The translations under genes and the position numbers were made by a program. Below, piece after piece: positions 3,381-25,606 of a DNA stretch of 35,041 nucleotides (position 1 is its first letter; the number at the start of each line of letters is the position of its first letter). The stretch is from Pararhodobacter sp. SW119 (GTDB taxonomy: Bacteria > Pseudomonadota > Alphaproteobacteria > Rhodobacterales > Rhodobacteraceae), in contig NZ_JADDJF010000034.1 of the NCBI RefSeq assembly GCF_017811755.1, forward strand, positions 1 through 35,041, written 5' to 3'. The notes under the pieces are model-generated. The model searched no databases and had not been told where the DNA came from. It was given only the letters and a program-made list of their open reading frames with translations.

Positions 3381-4346
3381 TCAGACGGGGCCACGGTTGG
3401 CGAAGACCGACCAGTTCATGCGGTCCGACAACCGCTCCAGCGCCATGACGCCCAGGCGGGAATTGCCGGCCTCGTCCAGGCCGGGCGACCAGACCCCGAT
3501 CGACGCGGTGCCCGGCACCACCGCCAGGATGCCGCCGCCGACCCCGCTTTTCGCGGGCAGTCCGGTGCGGTAGGCAAACTCGCCCGAGCCGTCGTACATG
3601 CCGCAGGTCAGCATCAGCGACAGGATGCGCCGCGCGCGCTTAATCCGCCGCTGGTCCGCGTCGTCGGGTTTGGGCGGTTCGGGCGGAATCAGGAAAAGGC
3701 CCAGCCGCGCCAGTTGGTGGCAGGACAACTCCATCGCGCATTGCAGCACGTAGGGCAGCATGACCTTGGCCGGTTCGTTGTCGAAATTGCCGAAGTGCCG
3801 CGCGATATGCATCAGCGCGGTGTTCTGGTCGCCGCCCTGGCGCGAGCTTTCGATCACCTCATCGCTGAAGGTGACCTTGTCGCCGTCGAGGTGCTTTTCG
3901 ACGAAGCTGCGGACGGCGTGCGCGGCTTCGTCCGAGCCGTATTTCGATACCAGAAGGTCGATCACCACCAGCGCGCCGGCGTTGACCAGCGGGTTGCGCG
4001 GATAGCCCTTGTACTGTTCCAGGTCGATGACCGTGTCGAACGGGTTGCCCGAGGGCTCGCGGCCGACGCGTTTCCAGAGCGCGTCGCCGATGGCCTCGTG
4101 CGCCAGTTCCAGCGACAGGATCTTCGAGATGCTCTGGATCGAGAAGGGCACCTGCGCATCGCCGGCGCTGGCGACGACGCCCTCGCCGGGAAACGCCACG
4201 GCGATGCCGAACTGGTGCAGATCGACGCGCGACAGCGCCTCGTCCTCGGGCGGCATGCCCCAGCCGTCAGTCTCGTGCATCTCCTGCGCGATCTCGTCGA
4301 GGGCGCGCTGAAGTGCGGCTCGTTCGCCGCGTTTGGTTTTGGCCAT
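3381..4346 (-). CDS. glsA: Glutaminase
   Basis: Hydrolyses L-glutamine to L-glutamate and ammonia in the cytoplasm; serine-dependent glutaminase family (beta-lactamase-like fold). The 321-residue length is typical. Visible signatures are the SxxK catalytic motif in 'FSIQSISKIL' (Ser72, Lys75), the 'EPSGNPFDTVIDLE' segment, 'PRNPLVNAGAL', and a late 'KSGVGGGILAVVPG' motif. An AAGGA sequence lies 6 bases upstream of the ATG. It is divergent from the DUF1489 gene (110-base gap) and upstream of nrdJ on the same strand, but the intervening gap contains a separate nrdJ promoter. No organism-specific oddity is seen. Confidence 0.95.
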   Translation of the reverse strand: MAKTKRGERAALQRALDEIAQEMHETDGWGMPPEDEALSRVDLHQFGIAVAFPGEGVVASAGDAQVPFSIQSISKILSLELAHEAIGDALWKRVGREPSGNPFDTVIDLEQYKGYPRNPLVNAGALVVIDLLVSKYGSDEAAHAVRSFVEKHLDGDKVTFSDEVIESSRQGGDQNTALMHIARHFGNFDNEPAKVMLPYVLQCAMELSCHQLARLGLFLIPPEPPKPDDADQRRIKRARRILSLMLTCGMYDGSGEFAYRTGLPAKSGVGGGILAVVPGTASIGVWSPGLDEAGNSRLGVMALERLSDRMNWSVFANRGPV

Positions 4347-7645: not shown

Positions 7646-8506
7646 ATGAACCTCGATCAGCTTCGAACCTTTCTCTGGGTGGCCCGGCTCGGCGGCGTGA
7701 GGCGCGCGTCCGAGCAGATGAACGTTTCGCAACCCGCGGTCTCGGCACGCCTGCAGGCGCTCGAAGACTCGCTCCGCGTCCGGCTTCTGGATCGCACCAC
7801 GCGCGGGGTTAGCCTGACGCGTGAGGGCGAATTGCTGCGCGGCTACGCCGAGCAGATGTTCTTCGTCCAGCAGGAGATCCTGCAGCGCGTGGCCGACCGG
7901 TCGGGCGCCACGGGGCTGTTTCGGGTCGGCGCCTCTGAAACGGTCGCGGAATCCTGGCTGCCGCAGTTCCTCAAACGGCTGAGTGCCGAGTTTCCGCGCT
8001 TGGATCTGGAGCTGACGGTCGATATCTCGGTCAATCTGCGCGAGGCGCTGCTGGCCCGCCAGCTTGACCTCGCCTTCCTGATGGGCCCCATCTCCGAGTT
8101 CAGCGTGGCGAATACCGACCTGCCGGAATTTGCGCTGGGTTGGTATCGTGCGGCCGGCACCGAGACCGCGGATTTCCTCAGCAGCCCAGTGATCAGCTAT
8201 GCGCGCAACACGCGGCCCTACCGCGAACTGGTGGCCGAACTGGGCAAGCGCTACGGGCCGAAGGTACGTATCTACAGCTGCGCGTCGCTGTCGGCCAGCA
8301 TGCAGATGATCGCGTCGGGGATCGGTGTCGGTCCGGTCCCGATCGCACTGGCGCGAGAGCGCGTCGCGGCCGGTCAGCTGGAGCGGTTCGATCCGGGCTG
8401 GACGCCGGCGCCGCTGCGCTTCACGGCCTCCTGGGTGGCCGATCCCCACAACTCGCTGGCGGAGCGGTGCGCGGAGCTGGCGCAGGCGGTCGCAGAAGAT
8501 TGGTGA
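7646..8506 (+). CDS. LysR family transcriptional regulator
   Basis: 286 residues from the ATG at 7646. The N-terminal winged helix-turn-helix (about residues 1-60) has the classic pattern 'MNLDQLRTFLWVARLGG', 'ASEQMNVSQPAVSARLQALE' and 'LLDRTTRGVSLTREGE'. The rest is a LysR effector-binding domain (about 90-286). A longer open frame upstream is rejected because the family begins right at this Met. It precedes the oxoprolinase-TRAP operon by 93 bases in the same direction, so it is the likely local regulator, perhaps responding to the transported compound. A 6-bp inverted repeat in that gap (8510-8537) is a possible site. Confidence 0.9.
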   Translation: MNLDQLRTFLWVARLGGVRRASEQMNVSQPAVSARLQALEDSLRVRLLDRTTRGVSLTREGELLRGYAEQMFFVQQEILQRVADRSGATGLFRVGASETVAESWLPQFLKRLSAEFPRLDLELTVDISVNLREALLARQLDLAFLMGPISEFSVANTDLPEFALGWYRAAGTETADFLSSPVISYARNTRPYRELVAELGKRYGPKVRIYSCASLSASMQMIASGIGVGPVPIALARERVAAGQLERFDPGWTPAPLRFTASWVADPHNSLAERCAELAQAVAEDW

Positions 8507-8509
8507 TCG

Positions 8510-8537
8510 ATTTTGCTGATCGGATCTGCCTCAAAAT
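8510..8537. promoter_or_regulatory. Inverted repeat between lysR and the oxoprolinase gene
   Basis: ATTTTG (8510-8515) and CAAAAT (8532-8537) are separated by 16 bases in the 93-base gap. The position, just upstream of the catabolic operon, would suit LysR regulation. The exact T-N11-A form of a LysR box is not clear. Confidence 0.3.
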
Positions 8538-8599
8538 GAAAATTTGTACGGATTGCCAGTATCCGCGATGGTGCCTCCATCAAATCGGGGGACGAAAGC

Positions 8600-11500
8600 A
8601 TGTGGCAATTCTGGGTCGATCGTGGTGGCACCTTCACCGACATCGTGGCGCGCGCGCCAGACGGCATGCTGAGTTCGCACAAATTTCTTTCCGAGAACCC
8701 GGAACTCTACGCCGATGCCGCTGTGTACGGTATCAACCGCATCCTGTCCGAAGCGCCCGAGTCCGCGCCGGGCATCGCCGCGGTGCGCATGGGAACCACG
8801 GTCGCAACCAACGCGCTTCTCGAGCGCAAGGGCGATCCGACGCTCTTGATCGTCAACGCGGGTTTCGGCTATGTGCTGCGGATCGGCTATCAGGCTCGCC
8901 CGCGGCTTTTCGATCTGAACGTGACGCTGCCGGACGTGCTCTATACCCGGGTTGCCGAGGTGGCCGGGCGTCTGGACAGCGCAGGCAACGAGATTGTCCC
9001 GCTCGACGAGGCGGCGACGCGCACGGCGCTTCAGGCGGCGTTCGCGCAGGGGATCCGCGGCGTGGCGATCGGCTTCATCCACGGCTGGCTGAACCCCGCG
9101 CACGAGGCCCGCGTCGCCGCCATCGCGCTGGAAGTGGGTTTCACGCAGGTCACCAGCTCGCACGAGGTGGCGCGGCTGATCAAGCTGATCGCGCGGACCG
9201 ACACGGCGGTGGCCGATGCCTATCTCTCGCCGATCCTGCGGCGTTATGTCGACCGTGTCTCGGGCGCGCTGAAGCTGACGGGAAAGGGGCAGCTTGCGTT
9301 CATGCAGTCCTCGGGCGGGCTGACCGATGCGGCGAATTTCCGCGGCCGCGACGCGATCCTGTCGGGACCGGCGGGCGGCGTCGTCGGCATGGTCCAGACG
9401 GCGCTGGCGGCGGGGCTGAAGCGGCTGATCGGCTTTGACATGGGCGGCACCTCGACCGATGTCTGCCATTACAACGGCACGTTCGAGCGGGTCTACGAGA
9501 CCGAGGTGGCGGGCGTGCGGATGCGCGCCCCGATGCTGGACATTCACACTGTCGCGGCGGGCGGCGGGTCGGTCTGCGCGTTCCGTGACGGGCGCTACCA
9601 GGTGGGGCCGGACAGCGCCGGCGCCGATCCGGGCCCGGCCTGCTACCGGCGCGGGGGGCCGCTGACGGTGACCGACTGCAACGTGGTGCTGGGGCGCATT
9701 TCGGCGCGCGACTTTCCGGCCGTTTTCGGGCCCGAAGGTGACCAGCCACTGGACCGCGACGCGGCCGTTGCCGCCTGCACCCGGCTGGCCGAACAGGTCG
9801 CCGAGGAGACCGGCCTGCCCGTGGCGCGGCCCGAGGATGTGGCCGAGGGCTTCCTGCGCATTGCGCTGGAGAACATGGCCGCGGCGATCAAGAAGATCAG
9901 CGTCGAGCGCGGCCATGACGTGACGGGTTACACGCTGTGCTGCTTCGGCGGTGCCGGCGGGCAGCATGCCTGCGGCGTGGCCGAGGTGCTGCGCATCCGC
10001 CGCGCCTATCTGCATCCGCTGGCCGGGGTGCTCTCGGCCTATGGCATGGGCCTTGCGCATCTGACCGCGATGCGCCAGCAGCAGGCCAACCTGCCGGTGA
10101 CCGATGCCCGGGCGGCTGAAATCATCGCGGAACTGCGCACCGAGGCGCAGGGCGAACTGATCGAGCAGGGCGTGACCGGCGACGGCATCGTCACCCGCGA
10201 AGTTGCCTTCCTGCGCTATCCGGGCGCGGCGCAGACGCTCGAGGTGGCCTTCGACACGCCGGCGGCGATGACCGACGCCTTCGCACAGGCGCATCTGGTG
10301 CGCTTCGGCTTCGTGCCGGAAGGGGCCGCGCCCGAGATCGACATGCTCTCGGTCGAGGCGCGCGATAGTGCCGAGACCCTCGATCCCGCCATTCTGCCGG
10401 AGGCGCATGATCTGGCGGCGCCGGGCACCACGCCCGCCTGGCTTGACGGCGCGGACCGGCAGATCGGGCTTTTCCACCGCGACAGGCTTGCGCCGGGCGA
10501 GCGCATCGTGGGCCCGGCGCTGATCGCCGAACGCATCGGCACGGTGTTCGTTGCCGACGGTTGGGTGGCACAGGTCGACAGCGCGCTGGGGTTGCATCTG
10601 ACGCATGTGGCCGCGGTCGCGCATTCGGATCTGGGCGCGGCGTCGCTGGCCAGTCCCGACCCGGTCCTGCTGGAGGTGATGTCGAACCGCTTCATGTCGG
10701 TGGCCGAACAGATGGGCGGCACGCTCGCCAACACCGCGCAGTCGGTCAACATCAAGGAGCGCATGGACTTCTCCTGCGCGCTGTTCGATGCGGCCGGCAA
10801 TCTGGTCGCCAACGCCCCGCATGTCCCGGTGCATCTGGGCTCGATGTCGGACTCGGTGCGCGCCACGGCGCGCAGTTTCGCCGGGCGGATGGAACCGGGC
10901 GACGCCTTCATGCTGAACTCGCCCTTCGAGGGCGGCACGCATCTGCCCGACGTCACCGTCATCACGCCGGTCTTCGACGAGGCCGGCGGCGCGATCGTGA
11001 ACTATGTCGCCTCACGCGGGCATCACGCCGATATCGGCGGCACTACGCCCGGATCGCTGCCCCCCGACAGCCGCACGATCCACGACGAGGGCGTGATCTT
11101 CGGGCCGGTGCAGCTGGTGCGCAAGGGAAGGCTTTTGGAGCGCGAGACCCGCGAACGGCTGGCCTCCGGCCCGCATCCCTGCCGCCAGATCGACCAGAAC
11201 ATCGCCGATCTGGCCGCGCAGATCGCCGCGAACGAGACCGGCATCGCCGCCTTGCGCTCGATGCGGGCGGAATTCGGCGCCGATGTGGTCACGGCCTATA
11301 CCGCCCATGTCCAGGGCAATGCCGAACATGCCGTTCGTCAGGCAATTTCGGCGCTGAAGGACAGCACGTTCGAACTGCCGATGGACATCGGCGCGCGGAT
11401 CAGGGTGCAGATCCGCGTCGACCACGACGCGCAAGGGGCCGAGATCGACTTCACCGGCACCTCGCCGCAGCAGGATGGCAACTACAACGCGCCCCTGTCG

Positions 11501-12190
11501 ATCTGCCGTGCGGCGGTGCTCTATGTCTTCCGCTGCCTTGTCGGGCGGGACATCCCACTGAACGAGGGCTGCCTGAAGCCGCTCAAGCTGATCGTGCCCG
11601 AAGGCTGCATGATCAACCCGAGGCCCCCCGCCGCCGTCATCGCCGGCAATACCGAGGTCAGCCAGGCGATCACCGAGTGCCTCTTTGGCGCTCTGGGCGT
11701 GATCGCGGGCTCACAGGGGACGATGAACAATTTCGCCTGGGGCGACGCCCGCTTCCAGAACTACGAGACGATCTGCGGCGGTATGGGGGCGACCTCCAAG
11801 GGTCCCGGCGCCAGTGCGGTGCAGGTGCACATGACCAACACGCGCCTGACCGACCCCGAGATCCTGGAGACCCGGTTCCCGGTGCGGCTGGAAGAAATGG
11901 CGATCCGCCTTGGCTCGGGTGGGGCAGGGCAGCACGCGGGGGGCGACGGTATCCGCCGGCGGCTGCGCGCGCTCGGCCCGATGACCGCGACGCTCCTGAC
12001 CTCGAACCGGGTGCAGCAGCCGTACGGGCTGGCCGGCGGGCGGACGGGACAGCCGGGTGTCAATGCGGTCGTACGGGCCGATGGCGTCCTCAGCGCGTTG
12101 CAGGGTCGCGACCAGGTCGAACTGGCGGCCGGCGACTGCATCGTGATCGAAACGCCCGGCGGCGGCGGGTATGGTGATCCGGAGTCCTGA
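8600..12190 (+). CDS. 5-oxoprolinase / hydantoinase family, HyuA-HyuB fused
   Basis: At 1196 residues this is near the size of single-chain 5-oxoprolinases. 5-oxoprolinase opens the lactam ring of 5-oxo-L-proline using ATP to give L-glutamate in the cytoplasm. Residues about 1-685 form the HyuA half: N-terminal '[12 protein letters not shown]' phosphate-binding motif, '[14 protein letters not shown]', and '[11 protein letters not shown]' near residue 280. Residues about 687-1196 form the HyuB half starting '[20 protein letters not shown]', with 'HVPVHLGSM', 'HHADIGG' and a glycine-rich C-terminus. GGGGGA lies 7 bases before the ATG. It heads the operon with a D-glutamate cyclase-like gene and TRAP genes, supporting action on 5-oxoproline or a close lactam. 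N-methylhydantoinase or another ring-opening activity cannot be excluded. Confidence 0.85.
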
Positions 12191-12273
12191 TCGATGGTGA
12201 TCCGAAACCATTATTTGACCCGATACCCCAGTCGCGCGACACTGAAGCCCTCAATACGAAATGCGAGCATGCC

Positions 12274-13065
12274 ATGAACCGCCAGGATCTTTCGGCACTC
12301 CGTGAAACCATCCGCTCGGGCGCCTTCTCGGGCCACACCGCCGGGCTGGCGCCGGGCAAGCTGCAATGCAACCTCGCCATCCTGCCGGAATCGCACGCGC
12401 TCGACTTCCTGCGCTTCTGCCTGCGTAACCCGAAACCCTGCCCGATCGTCGCAGTCGGTGAGACAGGCGATCCCATGCTCTACACGCTCGGGCGCGACAT
12501 CGACGTGCGCCGCGACACGCCGCGCTACCGGCTCTACCGAGACGGGCGCTTCGCCGCCGAGATGACCGACATCACCGAGCACTGGCACGACGACATGGTG
12601 ACGGTGGCGCTGGGTTGTTCCTTCACCTTCGAGCGCGCGCTGATGGCGGCCGGAATCCCGATGCGCCACATCGAACGCGACGTCACGGTCCCGATGTATC
12701 GCACCAGCCTGCCGCTGGTGTCCGCCGGGCCGTTCGGCGGCACCATGGTCGTTTCGATGCGCCCGCTGCGCGGCGGCGATATCGCCCGCGCCGCTGAGAT
12801 CAGCGCCCGCTATCCGCTCGCGCACGGCGCGCCGGTGCATGTCGGCAATCCCGCCGCGATCGGGATCGACAATCTGGATCGCCCCGACTGGGGCGACCCG
12901 GTGCCGGTCCATGACGACGAGATCCCGGTTTTCTGGGGCTGCGGCGTGACGCCCCAGAACGCGCTGCTCGCCGCCCGCGTGCCGCTGGTCATCACCCACG
13001 CTCCCGGCCACATGCTGATCAGCGATATCGACGAGGACGCGCCGATACCGATTCTAGCCGACTGA
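12274..13065 (+). CDS. DUF1445 protein, D-glutamate cyclase-like (putative hydro-lyase)
   Basis: 263 residues, typical for the DUF1445/putative hydro-lyase family. Recognisable conserved blocks are 'HTAGLAPGKLQCNLAILP', 'ALGCSFTFERALMAAGIP', 'AGPFGGTMVVSMRPL', 'DEIPVFWGCGVTPQ' and the C-terminal 'ITHAPGHMLISD'. The related domain of mammalian DGLUCY converts D-glutamate to 5-oxo-D-proline and water; many bacterial members are annotated only as hydro-lyases. It lies 83 bases after the oxoprolinase gene and 33 before the TRAP binding-protein gene, clearly in the same operon. No strong Shine-Dalgarno precedes the ATG. The link to 5-oxoproline is inferred from family and neighbours; the actual substrate and direction are unknown. 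Confidence 0.8.
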   Translation: MNRQDLSALRETIRSGAFSGHTAGLAPGKLQCNLAILPESHALDFLRFCLRNPKPCPIVAVGETGDPMLYTLGRDIDVRRDTPRYRLYRDGRFAAEMTDITEHWHDDMVTVALGCSFTFERALMAAGIPMRHIERDVTVPMYRTSLPLVSAGPFGGTMVVSMRPLRGGDIARAAEISARYPLAHGAPVHVGNPAAIGIDNLDRPDWGDPVPVHDDEIPVFWGCGVTPQNALLAARVPLVITHAPGHMLISDIDEDAPIPILAD

Positions 13066-13098
13066 GACCAACCACCACCAACCAACGGGGAAGAAACC

Positions 13099-14139
13099 AT
13101 GAAACTGAAACTCGCAACCGCCTTCCTGGTGACCAGCGCGCTTGCCGTGCCGGCCCAGGCCGAGATGCTGTCGGTGGTCGGCAGCTGGTCGAACCTGCCT
13201 CTGCACCGCCAGTACGAGGCGCCGTTCTGGAACGAGATCCTGCCCGATGCCTCGGGCGGGGATATCGAGGTCGCGCTGACCACCCATAACGAGATGGGGC
13301 TCGGCGTCGGCGACGTCTTCAACCTTCTCGCCGAGGGCGTCTACGACGTGGCGATGACCGTGGGCGACTACGCCGTGGCCGACGCACCGGAGCTTGAGGC
13401 GCTCGATGTGCCGCTGATCGCGCTCGACGCCGAGAGCGCGCGCGCCAAGACCGAGGCCGCGCGCCCGATGGTCGAGGACATCTTCCGCGACCGCTTCAAC
13501 AGCCATGTGCTGGCCATCGCCCCCTATCCACCGCAGATCGTCTTCTGCAACGCCGAGATTGCCGGGCTCGAGGATCTGCGCGGGTTGAAGGTGCGCGGCT
13601 CCGGGCGGATGACGGCGAAACTTCTGGAAGCGCTGGGCGCCGAAGGCGTGAACGTCGATTTCGGCGAGGTTCCGGGCGCGCTGCAACGCGGCGCCATCGA
13701 CTGTGCGGTGACCGGCGCCGGATCGGGCTACAATGCCGGCTGGTGGGAAGTGTCCTCGCATCTTCTGACGCTACCGCTGGGCGGCTGGGATCCGGTCGTC
13801 ACCGCGATCAACCTCGACCGCTGGAACAGCCTCAGCGCCGAGATGCAGGAACTGATCACCACCGAGATCAAGACCAGTTTCGAGGATCCGGCCTGGGCCT
13901 CGGCGCAGGATGCGCTGGTCAACGACGTGGCCTGCCTGACCGGCATCGGCGACTGCCCGCACGGCGAGTCGCGTTCGATGGTGCTGGTCGAGGCGAGCGA
14001 GGAGGATTTCGCTACCGCGCGCAGGATCCTGGAGACCGAGGTGCTGCCGGATTGGGCGGCCCGCGCCGGAAGCGACTGGGCAACGCGCTGGAACGAAGAG
14101 GTCGGATCGGTCGTCGGCGTGACGGTCCCGGTGAACTGA
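13099..14139 (+). CDS. TRAP transporter substrate-binding protein (DctP family)
   Basis: A 346-residue periplasmic protein with a signal peptide (residues 1-21, MKLKL... ending AQA). It captures an organic acid and delivers it to the DctQ-DctM permease. It has the usual 'GLKVRGSGR' motif, where Arg166 would bind a carboxylate, as well as 'AEGVYDVAMTVGDYA' and a 'GAIDCAVTGAGSGYNAGWWEV' segment. It is preceded by the D-glutamate cyclase-like gene (33 bases) and followed by dctQ (30 bases). Given the enzymes beside it, the ligand may be 5-oxoproline, D-glutamate or a related carboxylate; some Bordetella DctP proteins are known to bind pyroglutamate. The ligand cannot be read from sequence. Confidence 0.92.
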   Translation: MKLKLATAFLVTSALAVPAQAEMLSVVGSWSNLPLHRQYEAPFWNEILPDASGGDIEVALTTHNEMGLGVGDVFNLLAEGVYDVAMTVGDYAVADAPELEALDVPLIALDAESARAKTEAARPMVEDIFRDRFNSHVLAIAPYPPQIVFCNAEIAGLEDLRGLKVRGSGRMTAKLLEALGAEGVNVDFGEVPGALQRGAIDCAVTGAGSGYNAGWWEVSSHLLTLPLGGWDPVVTAINLDRWNSLSAEMQELITTEIKTSFEDPAWASAQDALVNDVACLTGIGDCPHGESRSMVLVEASEEDFATARRILETEVLPDWAARAGSDWATRWNEEVGSVVGVTVPVN

Positions 14140-14169
14140 ACGCGAAACCTGCAAGGGATCGGACGCCAC

Positions 14170-14730
14170 ATGGCACTGCGCCTTCTTGAATTTCTCAAAT
14201 GGTTCAATCGCGGCATCGCGCTTGCGGTCGGGCTGGGGCTGCTGGCCTGTGTCGCCTTCGTTCTGATCGAGATCACCTTGCGACGGCTCGGCTCGTCGCT
14301 GGGTGGCACCACCGAGATTACCGGCTACGTCATGGCGGTGGCCACCGCCTGGGGCATGGGATTTGCGCTGATGGAACTGGCGCATGTCCGCATCGAGATG
14401 CTGCGCACGCAACTCGCGCAATGGGGGCGGGTGATGCTGGACCTCATAGCAATGCTGGCGATGTCGGGAACGGTCGTGCTGATCGCATTCCGCGCCTGGC
14501 CGGTCCTGTCCCGCAGCATCGCCAACGACTCGCGTGCCAATACCGTTCTGGAAACCCCGCTGTGGATCCCGCAAAGCCTGTGGTTCGCCGGCTGGGCTTG
14601 GTTTGCCTTTATGACCTGCGCGGTCACGCTGATCGTACTGGTGCTGATCCTTCAGGGTCGGCTCGGGCAGGTCGAAGCCGCCATCGGTCCCGGCAACGAG
14701 GTCGACGCCGAGTTGGAGCACGCGAAATGA
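14170..14730 (+). CDS. TRAP transporter small permease (DctQ family)
   Basis: 186 residues with four predicted transmembrane helices (about 18-38, 53-73, 91-112 and 136-160). The family motif region 'LRRLGSSLGGTTEITGYVMAVATAWGM' is present. It forms the small membrane subunit of the sodium-driven importer with DctM. Its stop overlaps the dctM start (ATGA, 14727-14730), which suggests translational coupling and equal dosage. Confidence 0.92.
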   Translation: MALRLLEFLKWFNRGIALAVGLGLLACVAFVLIEITLRRLGSSLGGTTEITGYVMAVATAWGMGFALMELAHVRIEMLRTQLAQWGRVMLDLIAMLAMSGTVVLIAFRAWPVLSRSIANDSRANTVLETPLWIPQSLWFAGWAWFAFMTCAVTLIVLVLILQGRLGQVEAAIGPGNEVDAELEHAK

Positions 14731-16007
14731 TCCTCTATGTCTCGGTCGGGCTTCTCGGCCTTCTGTCGCTGACGATCCCTGTGGGGATCGTGCTTTTCCT
14801 GCTTGGCATCGGGATCGACCAGTTCTTTACGCCGTTCCCGCTGGTTCGCGGCATGGGGCAGATGATCTGGTCAGCCTCGAACAGCTCCACCCTGATCGCG
14901 ATCCCGTTCTTCGTGCTTCTCGGCGAGGTGCTCGTGCGCGGGGGCGTCGCCGCCAAAACCTACGGCGCGCTCGACAAATGGATGAGCTGGCTGCCCGGCG
15001 GGCTGATCCATGCCAATATCGGGACGGCGACGATGTTCTCGGCAACCTCAGGCTCGTCAGTCGCGACCGCCGCGACCGTCGCCACCGTCGCCATGCCGCA
15101 GGCCGAAAAGCTCGGCTATGACCCGCGGCTCTTTTCCGGCGCGATCGCGGCGGGCGGTACGCTGGGGATCATGATCCCGCCCTCGATCAATCTGATCGTC
15201 TATGGGTTTCTCACCGAAAGCTCGATCCCGCAGCTTTTCCTCGCGGGCCTCATTCCGGGGCTTCTTCTGGCGGTCGCCTTCAGCGTGGTAACCGCGCTGA
15301 TCTGCATGTTGCGTCCGAACCTGGGGGGCGAGCGGCGATTTTTCCCGCTGCGGGAGATGCTGGCCGGGCTCGTCCATCTGATCCCGATTCTGATCCTTTT
15401 CGCGGCCATCGTCGGCTCGATCTACCGGGGCTGGGCAACGCCGACCGAGGCCGCCGCGGTGGGGGTCGGCATGGCCTTCCTGATCGCCGCCTTTTCGGGC
15501 GGGGTGAACTGGCCGATGCTGCATGAGGCACTTTTGGGCACGATGCGCATCACGGCCATGATAATGCTCGTGGTTCTCGGCGCGGCGTTTCTCAACTTCA
15601 CGTTGTCGGCCGCCGGGCTTGGGCGCGAATTGCGCGCCTTCATGGACGGTCTGGGCTTGTCGCCCTTGATGATGCTGATGGTCATCGTGCTGATCTACAT
15701 CGTGCTCGGTTTCTTCATCGAGACGCTGTCGCTGATGGTGGTGACGATCCCGATCATGGTGCCGATCGTCGTCGGCCTCGGCTATGACGCGATCTGGTTC
15801 GGCATCCTGATGATCGTGCTGGTCGAGATGGCGTTGATCACGCCACCTGTCGGGCTGAACCTCTATGTCGTGCAGGGCGCGCGAAAAAGCGGCAGATTGT
15901 CCGAAGTCATGGTTGGCTGCATCCCCTATGCGCTGATCATGCTCTTGATGGCCTTTGCCCTGATCGCCTTTCCCGGTCTCGCTCTCTGGCTGCCGGCGAA
16001 CCTGTGA
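14727..16007 (+). CDS. TRAP transporter large permease (DctM family)
   Basis: 426 residues from the ATG that overlaps the dctQ stop. It is very hydrophobic, with about 12 helices, and forms the transport channel of the TRAP system. Conserved DctM features include 'IPFFVLLGEVLVRGGVA', 'FSATSGSSVATAATVATVAMPQ', 'GGTLGIMIPPSINLIVYGFLTE' and 'ITPPVGLNLYVVQG'. An ORF in the other frame that starts upstream is discarded because the family begins at this Met. A DUF2848 gene follows after 42 bases. Confidence 0.95.
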   Translation: MILYVSVGLLGLLSLTIPVGIVLFLLGIGIDQFFTPFPLVRGMGQMIWSASNSSTLIAIPFFVLLGEVLVRGGVAAKTYGALDKWMSWLPGGLIHANIGTATMFSATSGSSVATAATVATVAMPQAEKLGYDPRLFSGAIAAGGTLGIMIPPSINLIVYGFLTESSIPQLFLAGLIPGLLLAVAFSVVTALICMLRPNLGGERRFFPLREMLAGLVHLIPILILFAAIVGSIYRGWATPTEAAAVGVGMAFLIAAFSGGVNWPMLHEALLGTMRITAMIMLVVLGAAFLNFTLSAAGLGRELRAFMDGLGLSPLMMLMVIVLIYIVLGFFIETLSLMVVTIPIMVPIVVGLGYDAIWFGILMIVLVEMALITPPVGLNLYVVQGARKSGRLSEVMVGCIPYALIMLLMAFALIAFPGLALWLPANL

Positions 16008-16049
16008 TGCGACTCGCAAACCTGCGTGACACTGGTAATGGAGGCTTCC

Positions 16050-16730
16050 ATGACAACTGAACTCACGTTCGAGGCCGAGGGACGCGCGCACAGGATCGCT
16101 GTCTCGCAGCTGATTGTCGCGGGCTGGACCGGGCGGGATATGAAGGCGGTCCAGCACCACATCGACGAGCTTGCCGCGTTGGGCGTGCCCGCTCCGTCCA
16201 CGGTCCCGCTCCACTACCGGGTCGCGGCGGGATTGCTCAGCACCACCGACCGCCTGCAGGTGCTGGAGAATGAGACCTCGGGTGAGGCCGAGCCGCTTCT
16301 GATCCACGACGGCCAGACGCTCTGGCTCGGCCTCGGCTCCGATCACACCGACCGCGGGCTCGAGACCGTTTCGGTCGCGCACGCCAAACAGGCGTGCGGC
16401 AAGCCGGTCGCTACCGGCCTCTGGCGATTTGACGCACTAGCCGACCGCCTTGACACGCTCGAACTGGCGTCCTTCGTTCGCGAGGATGCGGATGCCGACT
16501 GGATTCCCTATCAACGCGGCACCCTCGCCGAGATCCGGCCGCTCGCCGATCTCATGGCCGCTCTTCCCGATGGTGGCCTGCGTCCGGGAATGGCCATGCT
16601 CTGCGGTACCCTTGCTGCCATCGGCGGCGTTCGCCCGGCTCGGCATTTCCGCATGGAACTGACCGATCCGGAAACCGGTCGGCACCTTTCGCACAGCTAC
16701 GCGGTCGAGGCGCTGCCGGTCGTCGCCTGA
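16050..16730 (+). CDS. DUF2848 family protein
   Basis: 226 residues starting at the ATG at 16050. GGAGG (16040-16044) sits 5 bases upstream, so the GTG at 16026 in the same frame is not needed. DUF2848 is an uncharacterised family. The conserved segment 'WLGLGSDHTDRGLETVSVAHAKQACGKP' has charged residues (Asp, His, Asp, Arg, Glu) that could bind metal or substrate, reminiscent of fumarylacetoacetate hydrolase-like enzymes, but this is a loose likeness. There is no signal peptide, so it is cytoplasmic. It is the last gene of the oxoprolinase-TRAP operon, so it probably acts in the same pathway. No terminator is seen in the 220-base gap after it. Confidence 0.8.
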   Translation: MTTELTFEAEGRAHRIAVSQLIVAGWTGRDMKAVQHHIDELAALGVPAPSTVPLHYRVAAGLLSTTDRLQVLENETSGEAEPLLIHDGQTLWLGLGSDHTDRGLETVSVAHAKQACGKPVATGLWRFDALADRLDTLELASFVREDADADWIPYQRGTLAEIRPLADLMAALPDGGLRPGMAMLCGTLAAIGGVRPARHFRMELTDPETGRHLSHSYAVEALPVVA

Positions 16731-24115: not shown

Positions 24116-25606
24116 ATGTCACCGATCCGCTTCCCGCTTCTGCTTGTCGCCGGCCTGGCGCTTGGCCTGGCGGCCGCCATTCCCGCCGGTCCGCTGGCCG
24201 CGCAATCCGACGAGGTGATCACCCGCCAGTACCCCGACGGCGGCATCTACGAGGGCACCTTTCAGGACGGCCTGCAGCACGGGCAAGGCAGCTTCCGCCT
24301 GCCCAACGGGTTCGAATACACCGGCGAATGGGTGGAGGGGCAGATCACCGGCGAGGGGGTCGCGCGCTATCCCAACGGCTCGGTCTACGAGGGGGCCTTC
24401 CTGGAGGGGCGGCCGCACGGGCCGGGGCGGATGGTCTTTGCCGACGGCTCGTCCTACGAGGGCGCGTGGGCGGAGGGTGAGATCACCGGCACCGGCACCC
24501 GCCGCTTCGCCACCGGCGCGGTCTACGAGGGCGAGTTCGTCGACGCGCAACCCCACGGCCAGGGCCGGATGGAGCGGCCCGGCGGGCTGGTCTACGACGG
24601 CGAATGGGTCCACGGCCAGCGCGAGGGGCGCGGCACGATCACCTATCCCGACGGATCGGTCTATGCCGGCGAGATGCGCGCCGACCAGCGCCACGGCGAG
24701 GGCCGGCTGGAGCGGCCCGACGGCACCATCTATGACGGCGAATGGGCCGAGGGGATGCTGCACGGCGCGGGCCGGCTGACGCTGCCCGGCGGCGACCGGC
24801 GCGAGGGGGTCTTCGAACAGGGCATGCTGCAGGGTTTGGGCCGGCTGGAGCTGGCCGACGGCGGCGTCTACGAGGGCGAGTTCCTGGACGACCAGCGCCA
24901 CGGGCAGGGCCGGCTGACGGCGGCGGACGGGCATATCTACAACGGCAGCTGGGTCGCCGACCGGATCGACGGGCAGGGCACGCTCGCCCATCCCGACGGC
25001 ACCCGCTACGAGGGGCAGTTCCGCGACGGGCTGCCCGACGGGCAGGGCCGCATCACCTATCCCGATGGCGCCACCTACGAGGGCGCGTGGTCCGGCGGGC
25101 TGATCGAGGGCGAGGGCCGCGCCGATTTCGGCGACGGGATGGTCTACGAAGGCTCGTTCCGCGCCGGCCAGCCGCACGGGCAGGGCCGGATGACCTTTGC
25201 CGACGGGCGCGTCTACGAGGGCGGTTTCGCCGAGGGGCTGTTCGACGGGGCGGGCGTGCTGGTCTATGCCGATGGCGGCCGGTTCGAGGGCAGCTTCGCG
25301 CTAGGCGAGATGGAGGGCACAGGCCGGCTGGAGCTGCCCGATGGCTCGACCTACGAGGGCGAGTGGCGCGCCGGCCGGATCGAGGGGCAAGGCGTGGTCC
25401 GCTACGTCACCGGCGATGTCTACGAAGGCGACCTGGCCGATGGGCAGCGCGAGGGAACGGGCGAGTTGCGCTATACCACCGGCGAGGTGGCGCGCGGGGT
25501 CTGGCGCGCCGGCGTCCTGGTGGAGCCCGCCGCGGAGCCCGAGCCGGAGGTCGAGGCGGCGCCGGAGGGCGAAACCGAACCCGAGGCGGACGAAGCCGAC
25601 GGGTAG
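24116..25606 (+). CDS. Secreted MORN-repeat protein
   Basis: 496 residues. A signal peptide (about 1-29, ending 'LAA') is followed by 18 full and one shortened MORN repeats, each 23 residues long, from about residue 42 to 475. Each repeat has the G-x-x-Y-x-G-x-W/F ... G-x-G form, for example 'GSVYEGAFLEGRPHGPGRMVF'. The tail (about 475-496) is Glu/Pro-rich and acidic. MORN repeats form a curved beta-sheet that binds lipids or proteins; in bacteria most members are uncharacterised. Export to the periplasm or cell surface is inferred from the signal. It has no functional neighbours on the same strand. Confidence 0.9.
   Translation: MSPIRFPLLLVAGLALGLAAAIPAGPLAAQSDEVITRQYPDGGIYEGTFQDGLQHGQGSFRLPNGFEYTGEWVEGQITGEGVARYPNGSVYEGAFLEGRPHGPGRMVFADGSSYEGAWAEGEITGTGTRRFATGAVYEGEFVDAQPHGQGRMERPGGLVYDGEWVHGQREGRGTITYPDGSVYAGEMRADQRHGEGRLERPDGTIYDGEWAEGMLHGAGRLTLPGGDRREGVFEQGMLQGLGRLELADGGVYEGEFLDDQRHGQGRLTAADGHIYNGSWVADRIDGQGTLAHPDGTRYEGQFRDGLPDGQGRITYPDGATYEGAWSGGLIEGEGRADFGDGMVYEGSFRAGQPHGQGRMTFADGRVYEGGFAEGLFDGAGVLVYADGGRFEGSFALGEMEGTGRLELPDGSTYEGEWRAGRIEGQGVVRYVTGDVYEGDLADGQREGTGELRYTTGEVARGVWRAGVLVEPAAEPEPEVEAAPEGETEPEADEADG
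24239..25540 (+). repeat. 69-bp tandem coding repeats (19 MORN units)
   Basis: The DNA repeat unit of 69 bases corresponds to the 23-residue MORN unit. Units differ in sequence but keep exact length, so the array has diverged without indels. This favours ancient duplication with selection on unit length. Confidence 0.8.

Follow-up and report, generated by a model that had tools for sequence, protein, structure and literature searches.

A candidate operon for 5-oxoproline uptake and ring opening, with a TRAP importer and a fused HyuAB protein, in Pararhodobacter sp. SW119

The operon and its genes

The window analysed here is the whole 35,041-nucleotide stretch of contig NZ_JADDJF010000034.1 of Pararhodobacter sp. 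SW119, and our subject is an operon of seven + strand genes within it (positions 7646 to 16730), which encodes a regulator, a fused HyuA-HyuB protein (HyuAB), two proteins with domains of unknown function (DUF1445 and DUF2848) and a tripartite ATP-independent periplasmic (TRAP) importer. All seven products scored at or above their own Pfam cut-offs. The genes, in order, are:

7646-8506, + strand: LysR-family regulator (PF00126, PF03466)
8600-12190, + strand: fused HyuA-HyuB of 1196 residues, by family assignment a eukaryotic 5-oxoprolinase-type ATP-dependent lactam hydrolase (PF05378, PF01968, PF19278, PF02538)
12274-13065, + strand: DUF1445 protein, of the family named "putative hydro-lyase" or "D-glutamate cyclase" (PF07286, 207 bits; NF003969 above cut-off)
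13099-14139, + strand: DctP, solute-binding protein of the TRAP importer (PF03480)
14170-14730, + strand: DctQ, small membrane subunit (PF04290)
14727-16007, + strand: DctM, large membrane subunit (PF06808 and TIGR00786, both above cut-off)
16050-16730, + strand: DUF2848 protein, a probable metal-dependent enzyme with a fumarylacetoacetate hydrolase (FAH)-superfamily fold in its model (PF11010, 238 bits)

The intergenic gaps from LysR to DUF2848 are 93, 83, 33, 30, -4 and 42 bases; the original prediction from the sequence had given the seven same-strand genes and the last five of these spacings exactly, and its family assignments all held. The HyuAB chain carries the Hydant_A_N, Hydantoinase_A, Hydant_A_C and Hydantoinase_B domains, and the presence of DctP, DctQ and DctM makes up the full set of a DctP-type TRAP transporter.

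Conservation of the cassette

Among 198 genomes of the family, each representing its own genus, DUF2848 was found in 26 and DUF1445 in 42, and the two occurred together in 20, above chance (Fisher, 4e-11). At 16 of the 25 DUF2848 loci outside the SW119 genome, DUF1445 and DctPQM were in the same cassette; one other locus (L040; loci are given L numbers and genomes G numbers) had DctPQM without DUF1445, and eight had neither DUF1445 nor the DctPQM set. Conversely, 15 of 26 DUF1445 loci unlinked to DUF2848 were DUF1445-DctPQM cassettes with a DctP 70-77% identical, and a LysR gene lay beside 14 of these 15. A scan of genome contigs for DUF2848, from which the best 80 named loci were kept, found TRAP genes in 60 and TRAP genes together with DUF1445 in 55. 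Many related cassettes have a LysR gene beside them, on either strand. Based on these locus counts, the conserved core of the cassette is LysR-DUF1445-DctPQM and DUF2848 is an accessory. Gene-order conservation, which had been proposed as a check on the prediction, therefore holds widely for this core, often with DUF2848.

The cassette set used below comprised 83 of 88 rows after removal of five identical ones, and 33 of the 83 are cut within 6 kb of DctM. DUF2848 was absent near 15 of the 83, with at least eight state changes on the transporter tree. Each of these 15 loci is cut, and 14 of the genomes concerned gave no DUF2848 match at all; L122 belongs to a genome (G168) with DUF2848 elsewhere. 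In the literature searched we found no paper mentioning DUF2848, and no account of this cassette among the literature matches listed.

Some cassettes have further neighbours. A gene of the M24 creatinase/prolidase type lies directly after DUF2848 or near the cassette at L030, L135 and L154, and also at L130, L175 and L226 (called by Pfam for the L030 gene and by tblastn for the other loci). In addition, a cupin protein, presumably resembling ureidoglycine aminohydrolase, directly adjoins the cassette at L034 (8831-9691; the same locus as L142).

Two oxoprolinase types in one slot

The fused oxoprolinase, which the prediction had listed among the genes of the module, was found to be a replaceable part of it. 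Near DctM in the 83 distinct cassettes, fused HyuAB was present in nine, PxpB/PxpC-type genes (called by tblastn at E<=1e-6) in 23, both in none and neither in 51. The PxpB-PxpC pairs occur with or without PxpA. The nearest tree rows to the window are L129 and L146. In L146, a Natronohydrobacter metagenome-assembled genome (DctP 81%, DctM 87%), PxpB-PxpC-PxpA lie upstream of LysR in place of HyuAB, and L129, the sister of the window, had no oxoprolinase in the sequence covered. There are no Pxp genes near the window cassette, and at no other mapped locus was a HyuAB placed between LysR and DUF1445.

When the 32 labelled rows are placed on a DctM+DctP tree, the HyuAB/Pxp label switches seven times, or six times without L128, whose HyuAB lies on the opposite strand. 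Shuffled labels gave means of 8.1 and 7.3 switches, respectively, so the labels are no more clustered than random, which fits frequent exchange of HyuAB and Pxp genes. Collapsed trees gave seven to eight switches, which are upper values as forks were treated as hard. The absence of overlap between the two types within cassettes was rejected as a strong stand-alone test, its chance probability being 0.045; the argument is carried by the switches and by genome counts.

These arrangements bear on a very improbable alternative: a loose neighbourhood, in which the imported acid has nothing to do with the lactam genes and these lie beside the importer by chance. The position of HyuAB seen only in the window, the sister cassette L129 and the 51 cassettes with neither oxoprolinase nearby would all suit such chance neighbours. 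However, chance neighbours would not be expected to show the pattern seen here, with one or the other of two unrelated oxoprolinases recruited repeatedly and separately into the same cassette.

At the level of the 198 genomes, fused HyuAB was found in 74 (window protein as reference, E<=1e-150, at most three candidates scored per genome) and PxpA in 136. Fused HyuAB alone occurred in 57 genomes, PxpA alone in 119, both in 17 and neither in five (P 3e-28, a statistic that counts related, and so not independent, genomes). The SW119 genome itself has two fused HyuAB proteins, the second at C1:354384 (G000) and 54% identical, and no PxpA match in a search whose control was positive in five named genomes; the system is thus not a pxp system, though it may work like one. 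Eukaryotic-type and Pxp oxoprolinases catalyse the same reaction (PMC13274462, PMC8453981), and this, together with their near exclusion, favours 5-oxoprolinase activity for these fused HyuAB proteins.

The HyuAB of the window

The window HyuAB contains the motifs DRGGTF, DMGGTS and GADPGP, matching the phosphate 1, phosphate 2 and adenosine (GxxPGP) motifs for ATP described in PMC8453981, and of the 302 columns without variation among 40 other HyuAB rows (39 of them different) it retains 296. In a tree of 41 HyuAB sequences, built by a quick method, it fell in a set of 12 (Shimodaira-Hasegawa-like approximate likelihood ratio support 98) made up of itself, L143 and ten copies from outside the cassettes. 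A separate set of ten includes L131, L114, L104, L057, L116, L033, L035 and L194. We therefore rejected the view of the window protein as a typical cassette copy, as it groups with mainly non-cassette copies. Its end branch measures 0.81 against a median of 0.22. The tree placement, the long branch and the retained columns and ATP motifs indicate that this HyuAB was recruited separately from that of most other cassettes and then changed fast while its core was retained. Other DctM genes (28-42% identical) lie near seven of 20 non-cassette HyuAB genes (L252, L253, L255, L256, L258, L262 and L263), so the pairing of TRAP genes with a fused HyuAB also exists outside this cassette.

"Oxoprolinase" is a family name, and the HyuA and HyuB families also include hydantoinases and caprolactamase (PMC8453981). 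The bit scores of the window protein were 411 with the fused PDB chain 7hk5, 240 with CapA and 116 with CapB. Since 7hk5 is named an N-methylhydantoinase, fusion was dropped as a mark of an oxoprolinase. The CapA Lys40 criterion (PMC8453981) was also dropped, as the alignment gave this residue no clear position. Caprolactamase CapAB and the hydantoinases share the HyuA/HyuB families and ATP motifs of the window HyuAB; those discussed in PMC8453981 are unfused, whereas the window protein is a single chain.

DUF1445 accompanies both oxoprolinase types

To see DUF1445 beyond the family, we mapped 39 loci of about 16.5 kb each from 38 genera (one each, plus a second in G492). Of 397 genomes 76 had a match, and the loci were chosen from the 61 that lie outside the family. 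Three of these loci (L222, L232 and L248) are cut by a contig end, and L224 is slightly shorter. Pxp genes (PxpA, PxpB or PxpC) were present in 19, Hyu genes in six, both in none and neither in 14, and thus one of the two oxoprolinase types lies beside DUF1445 in 25 of the 39. Chance would be expected to give fewer than one such locus, by a rough arithmetic guess. Five of the six Hyu loci have fused genes (56-61%), and L224 has a weak match of 31-32% in two pieces. Of the 14 loci lacking an oxoprolinase, five (L214, L217, L221, L226 and L243) have DUF2848.

Of nine plasmid DUF1445 loci, viewed from 240 records, seven had a visible oxoprolinase gene. A Klebsiella plasmid has the order NRAMP-PxpA-DUF1445-urea amidolyase family protein (a PxpBC-type fusion)-biotin carboxylase. 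An Azospirillum locus has an oxoprolinase gene, Acidovorax has TRAP genes with HyuAB, and Paraburkholderia has a major facilitator superfamily (MFS) importer with HyuAB. In Agrobacterium fabrum a Glu/Leu/Phe/Val dehydrogenase adjoins HyuAB. In two further loci PxpA lies at the edge of the view, and two had no oxoprolinase. The importers at these plasmid loci are of the TRAP, NRAMP, ATP-binding cassette (ABC) or MFS type; the importer thus varies, and DUF1445 and an oxoprolinase often remain together.

A PF07286 match is present in Bacillus subtilis, and we take YcsI to be the DUF1445 protein of this species. The gene ycsI lies in an operon with pxpABC (PMC10448178). DUF1445 is a regular neighbour of both types of 5-oxoprolinase. 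Two solved structures, 2pif and 3db9 (UPF0317 proteins), are relatives of the window protein. Among the literature matches listed for DUF1445, YcsI and D-glutamate cyclase, there was no report of the cassette.

The name of PF07286 invites a different reading, in which the TRAP importer takes up D-glutamate, DUF1445 cyclises it to 5-oxo-D-proline and HyuAB opens the ring. The conversion of D-glutamate to 5-oxo-D-proline has been shown for a mammalian protein (PMC5339696), but that protein combines DUF1445 with DUF4392, and its authors placed the racemase likeness on DUF4392. The window protein has the PF07286 domain alone, without DUF4392 (PF14336). No PF14336 match was found elsewhere in the SW119 genome, in a search in which no control genome gave a match either. 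In addition, a lactam made and then reopened with ATP would bring no gain unless the ring form were racemised, and DUF1445 sits among Pxp genes, which form a 5-oxo-L-proline system in Corynebacterium glutamicum (PMC13274462). We consider the D-glutamate route improbable, and this part of the flow first proposed for the operon is not supported. Import followed by lactam opening is supported, with 5-oxoproline as the best candidate.

DctP is compatible with pyroglutamate

The prediction had leaned on DctP proteins of Bordetella that bind pyroglutamate (5-oxoproline). In a profile search with the window DctP, which matched 67 structures, 5i5p came first (1.2e-27), followed by 5iga, 2pfy (third, 7.9e-27), 2pfz (fourth, 1.4e-26) and 4n4u, and the pyroglutamate receptor 6wgm was twelfth. 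A fold search with the DctP model (predicted local distance difference test score, pLDDT, 91; 644 matches) placed 2pfy third, 6wgm seventeenth and 2pfz twentieth. Arg166, Gln146 and Glu190 are invariant in 46 aligned DctP sequences (L108 was removed because of a stop within the range) and have identical counterparts in the alignment with 2pfy and 2pfz. The conserved TRAP arginine binds the carboxylate of the ligand (PMC4646407). All three positions are also shared by 4n4u, and 5i5p, the best match, shares only the arginine.

We therefore abandoned ligand assignment by DctP homology, as single-sequence, profile and fold searches cannot single out pyroglutamate; the window DctP is compatible with this ligand, and the match is not diagnostic. 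Bordetella pertussis DctP6 and DctP7 (2pfz and 2pfy) are likewise DctP-type TRAP receptors with a eukaryotic-type oxoprolinase in the genome region, but the window DctP is only 18-19% identical to them, and the use of 5-oxoproline by B. pertussis could not be shown (PMC13274462). The Bordetella comparison is thus consistent with pyroglutamate and weak as an argument by itself.

DUF2848 and the possibility of another lactam

No role had been proposed for the DUF2848 protein beyond its family. Its structural model (pLDDT 96.5) gave 20 PDB matches at E<=0.001, all of them FAH-type enzymes, namely Cg1458, 2-keto-3-deoxy-arabinonate and xylonate dehydratases, YisK, fumarylacetoacetate hydrolase and a like hydrolase; we take all 20 to belong to one superfamily. 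Glu79, Glu81, Asp98, Lys113, Gln155 and Gly186-Thr187 are among the residues invariant in 54 DUF2848 sequences. The FAH motif, as we understand it, consists of Glu-x-Glu and Asp as metal ligands plus Lys and Gln, and the invariant acids correspond, as judged by eye only, to this metal set. The sequence-profile search gave no significant FAH match (best E 0.047), with four of nine hits named as FAH or HpcE types, and there was no other Pfam family at E<=1. Like the FAH enzymes in model fold and invariant acidic set, the window protein is nonetheless only 11-19% identical to them, and Pfam keeps PF11010 as a DUF. Based on the model, DUF2848 is a probable metal-dependent enzyme with an FAH-superfamily fold. 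Of 22 pattern matches to DUF2848 in viral contigs, none was confirmed as a relative.

The neighbours of DUF2848 suggest where it may act. Of 16 plasmid loci, viewed from 56 records, 11 had an amidase, three a carbon-nitrogen hydrolase, one a fused HyuAB and one (Vibrio) none of these, and an amidase lay within 9 kb at 46 of the best 80 genome loci. The two genes are not always adjacent, the amidase of L067 being about 5 kb away. Away from the TRAP cassettes, DUF2848 and an amidase are accompanied by an importer of the MFS or ABC type, or by a cupin and a flavin monooxygenase set. This context of amidases, hydrolases and oxoprolinases suggests for DUF2848 a step before or after amide cleavage, on a substrate that, by analogy with other FAH enzymes, is probably a 2-oxo acid.

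At L029, L060 and L061, a flavin reductase, a 4-hydroxyphenylacetate-3-hydroxylase-type monooxygenase, a cupin and an amidase lie beside DUF2848. This set looks like a ring-oxidising pathway, for which an N-heterocycle would fit.

The amidase company of DUF2848, found in 14 of the 16 plasmid loci as an amidase or carbon-nitrogen hydrolase, also feeds the chief rival to 5-oxoproline: that the substrate is a different lactam, hydantoin or cyclic imide acid, opened by HyuAB, with DUF2848 and an amidase finishing the amide product. The breadth of the HyuA/HyuB families and the long branch of the window HyuAB point the same way. Against it, none of the 15 same-importer cassettes without DUF2848 has an amidase nearby, as scored with five query amidases, and 23 cassettes hold PxpB/C-type genes, although such domains occur in urea-amidolyase-type proteins as well. 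The characterised use of PxpB/C with PxpA is 5-oxoproline (PMC13274462). On balance we think this rival unlikely, though it is the one to be taken most seriously.

Surroundings of the operon

The end of the operon at 16730 fits with the sequence that follows, where the next + strand open reading frame (16879) has no Pfam match and is succeeded by housekeeping genes: a D-Ala-D-Ala carboxypeptidase, a thymidylate kinase and a DNA polymerase III delta-type subunit. Upstream, on the opposite strand, are a Na/H-exchanger-TrkA_N protein and a BA14K protein, and the neighbours on both sides look unrelated to the operon. There were no tRNAs, and no Rfam families at gathering score, within the window. 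Promoter and terminator patterns in the window were in no excess over shuffles, and the G+C content (0.62-0.73) showed no step where the operon begins or ends. A glutaminase gene on the - strand (3384-4346) lies about 3.3 kb upstream of LysR; it is not part of the conserved cassette as seen, and no search for it elsewhere was made. A protein with ten MORN repeat matches is encoded at 24116-25603.

Proposed function and its weighing

From these comparisons of sequence, we propose, with a probability of about 0.64, that the operon is inducible and serves to import 5-oxoproline, or a lactam acid closely resembling it, and to open its ring. 5-Oxoproline is the best substrate candidate because of the replacement of one oxoprolinase by another in the cassette, their near exclusion at the genome level and the presence of DUF1445 beside either type. 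Gene replacement and genome counts now carry the proposal, in place of the analogy with Bordetella. Also in its favour are the Glu/Leu/Phe/Val dehydrogenase beside HyuAB at the A. fabrum DUF1445 locus and the third and fourth ranks of 2pfy and 2pfz in the DctP profile search.

In the scheme we envisage, the LysR protein would sense the substrate and switch the genes on. DctP would bind the substrate in the periplasm by way of the TRAP arginine, and DctQM would import it with sodium, as expected from the family. The fused HyuAB, in whose place sister cassettes have PxpB/PxpC-type genes, would activate the lactam with ATP and hydrolyse it to glutamate. DUF1445, given its observed association, probably acts on 5-oxoproline itself, perhaps on the D form. 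DUF2848, with its predicted FAH-superfamily fold, would be an accessory that is usually near an amide-cleaving enzyme and is variably present with the same importer.

A number of observations weigh against this proposal. Besides the relatedness of the genomes counted and the limit of three HyuAB candidates scored per genome, the long branch of the window HyuAB means that its substrate may have shifted, and receptors for other ligands match the window DctP just as well, 5i5p being first. Among the 51 cassettes without either oxoprolinase nearby, 34 have at least 6 kb of sequence on both sides of DctM. In 36 of the 83 cassettes there is an amidase, for which a simple 5-oxoproline pathway would have no need. 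At L143, a HyuAB lies just beyond a cassette with Pxp genes when a wider span is taken, so the exclusion is imperfect. At L107, L109, L112 and L115, PxpB-PxpC follow DctM with no PxpA in the rest of the stretch, and PxpA is elsewhere in those genomes; these PxpB/C proteins may serve another amidohydrolase. Pfam was run on a single PxpB/C pair (L046), which gave CT_C_D and CT_A_B, and by annotation PxpB/C-type domains also occur in proteins of the urea-amidolyase type. Finally, across the 198 genomes DUF1445 had no association with fused HyuAB (16/42 versus 58/156, P 1.0) and a weak one with PxpA (36/42 versus 100/156, P 0.008), counts that are to be expected because nearly all the genomes carry one or the other oxoprolinase.

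The proposed 5-oxoproline module has known counterparts. The pxpTABC system is a proven system for growth on 5-oxoproline (PMC13274462). Like pxpTABC of C. glutamicum and ycsFGI-kipIA of B. subtilis, the operon would combine an importer, an ATP-dependent 5-oxoprolinase and a regulator, and pxp-like operons of other genera have DUF1445 among their pxp genes. The operon differs from these two systems in having a TRAP importer, a fused HyuAB in place of PxpABC, a LysR protein in place of the GntR-type PxpR, and an added DUF2848.

A broader generalisation is possible, which we hold only tentatively. DUF1445 would be a dedicated 5-oxoproline enzyme, regular in the catabolism of this compound in Proteobacteria and Bacillus, for example by passing the D form to an L-specific oxoprolinase. 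At the same time, DUF2848 would be a new branch of the FAH enzymes one step from amide hydrolysis by an amidase, nitrilase-type hydrolase or oxoprolinase, and its substrate would probably be the amide of a 2-oxo acid, open or ring-closed.

5-Oxoproline arises spontaneously from glutamate and glutamine in cells and in amino-acid-rich habitats (PMC13274462). The name "D-glutamate cyclase" should be applied to PF07286 proteins with caution, as it rests on the two-domain mammalian protein. If the proposal is correct, the cassette would provide a TRAP route for 5-oxoproline uptake that is open to test in common laboratory strains of Paracoccus, and it would tie two families of unknown function, bacterial PF07286 and PF11010, to the catabolism of lactams and amides.

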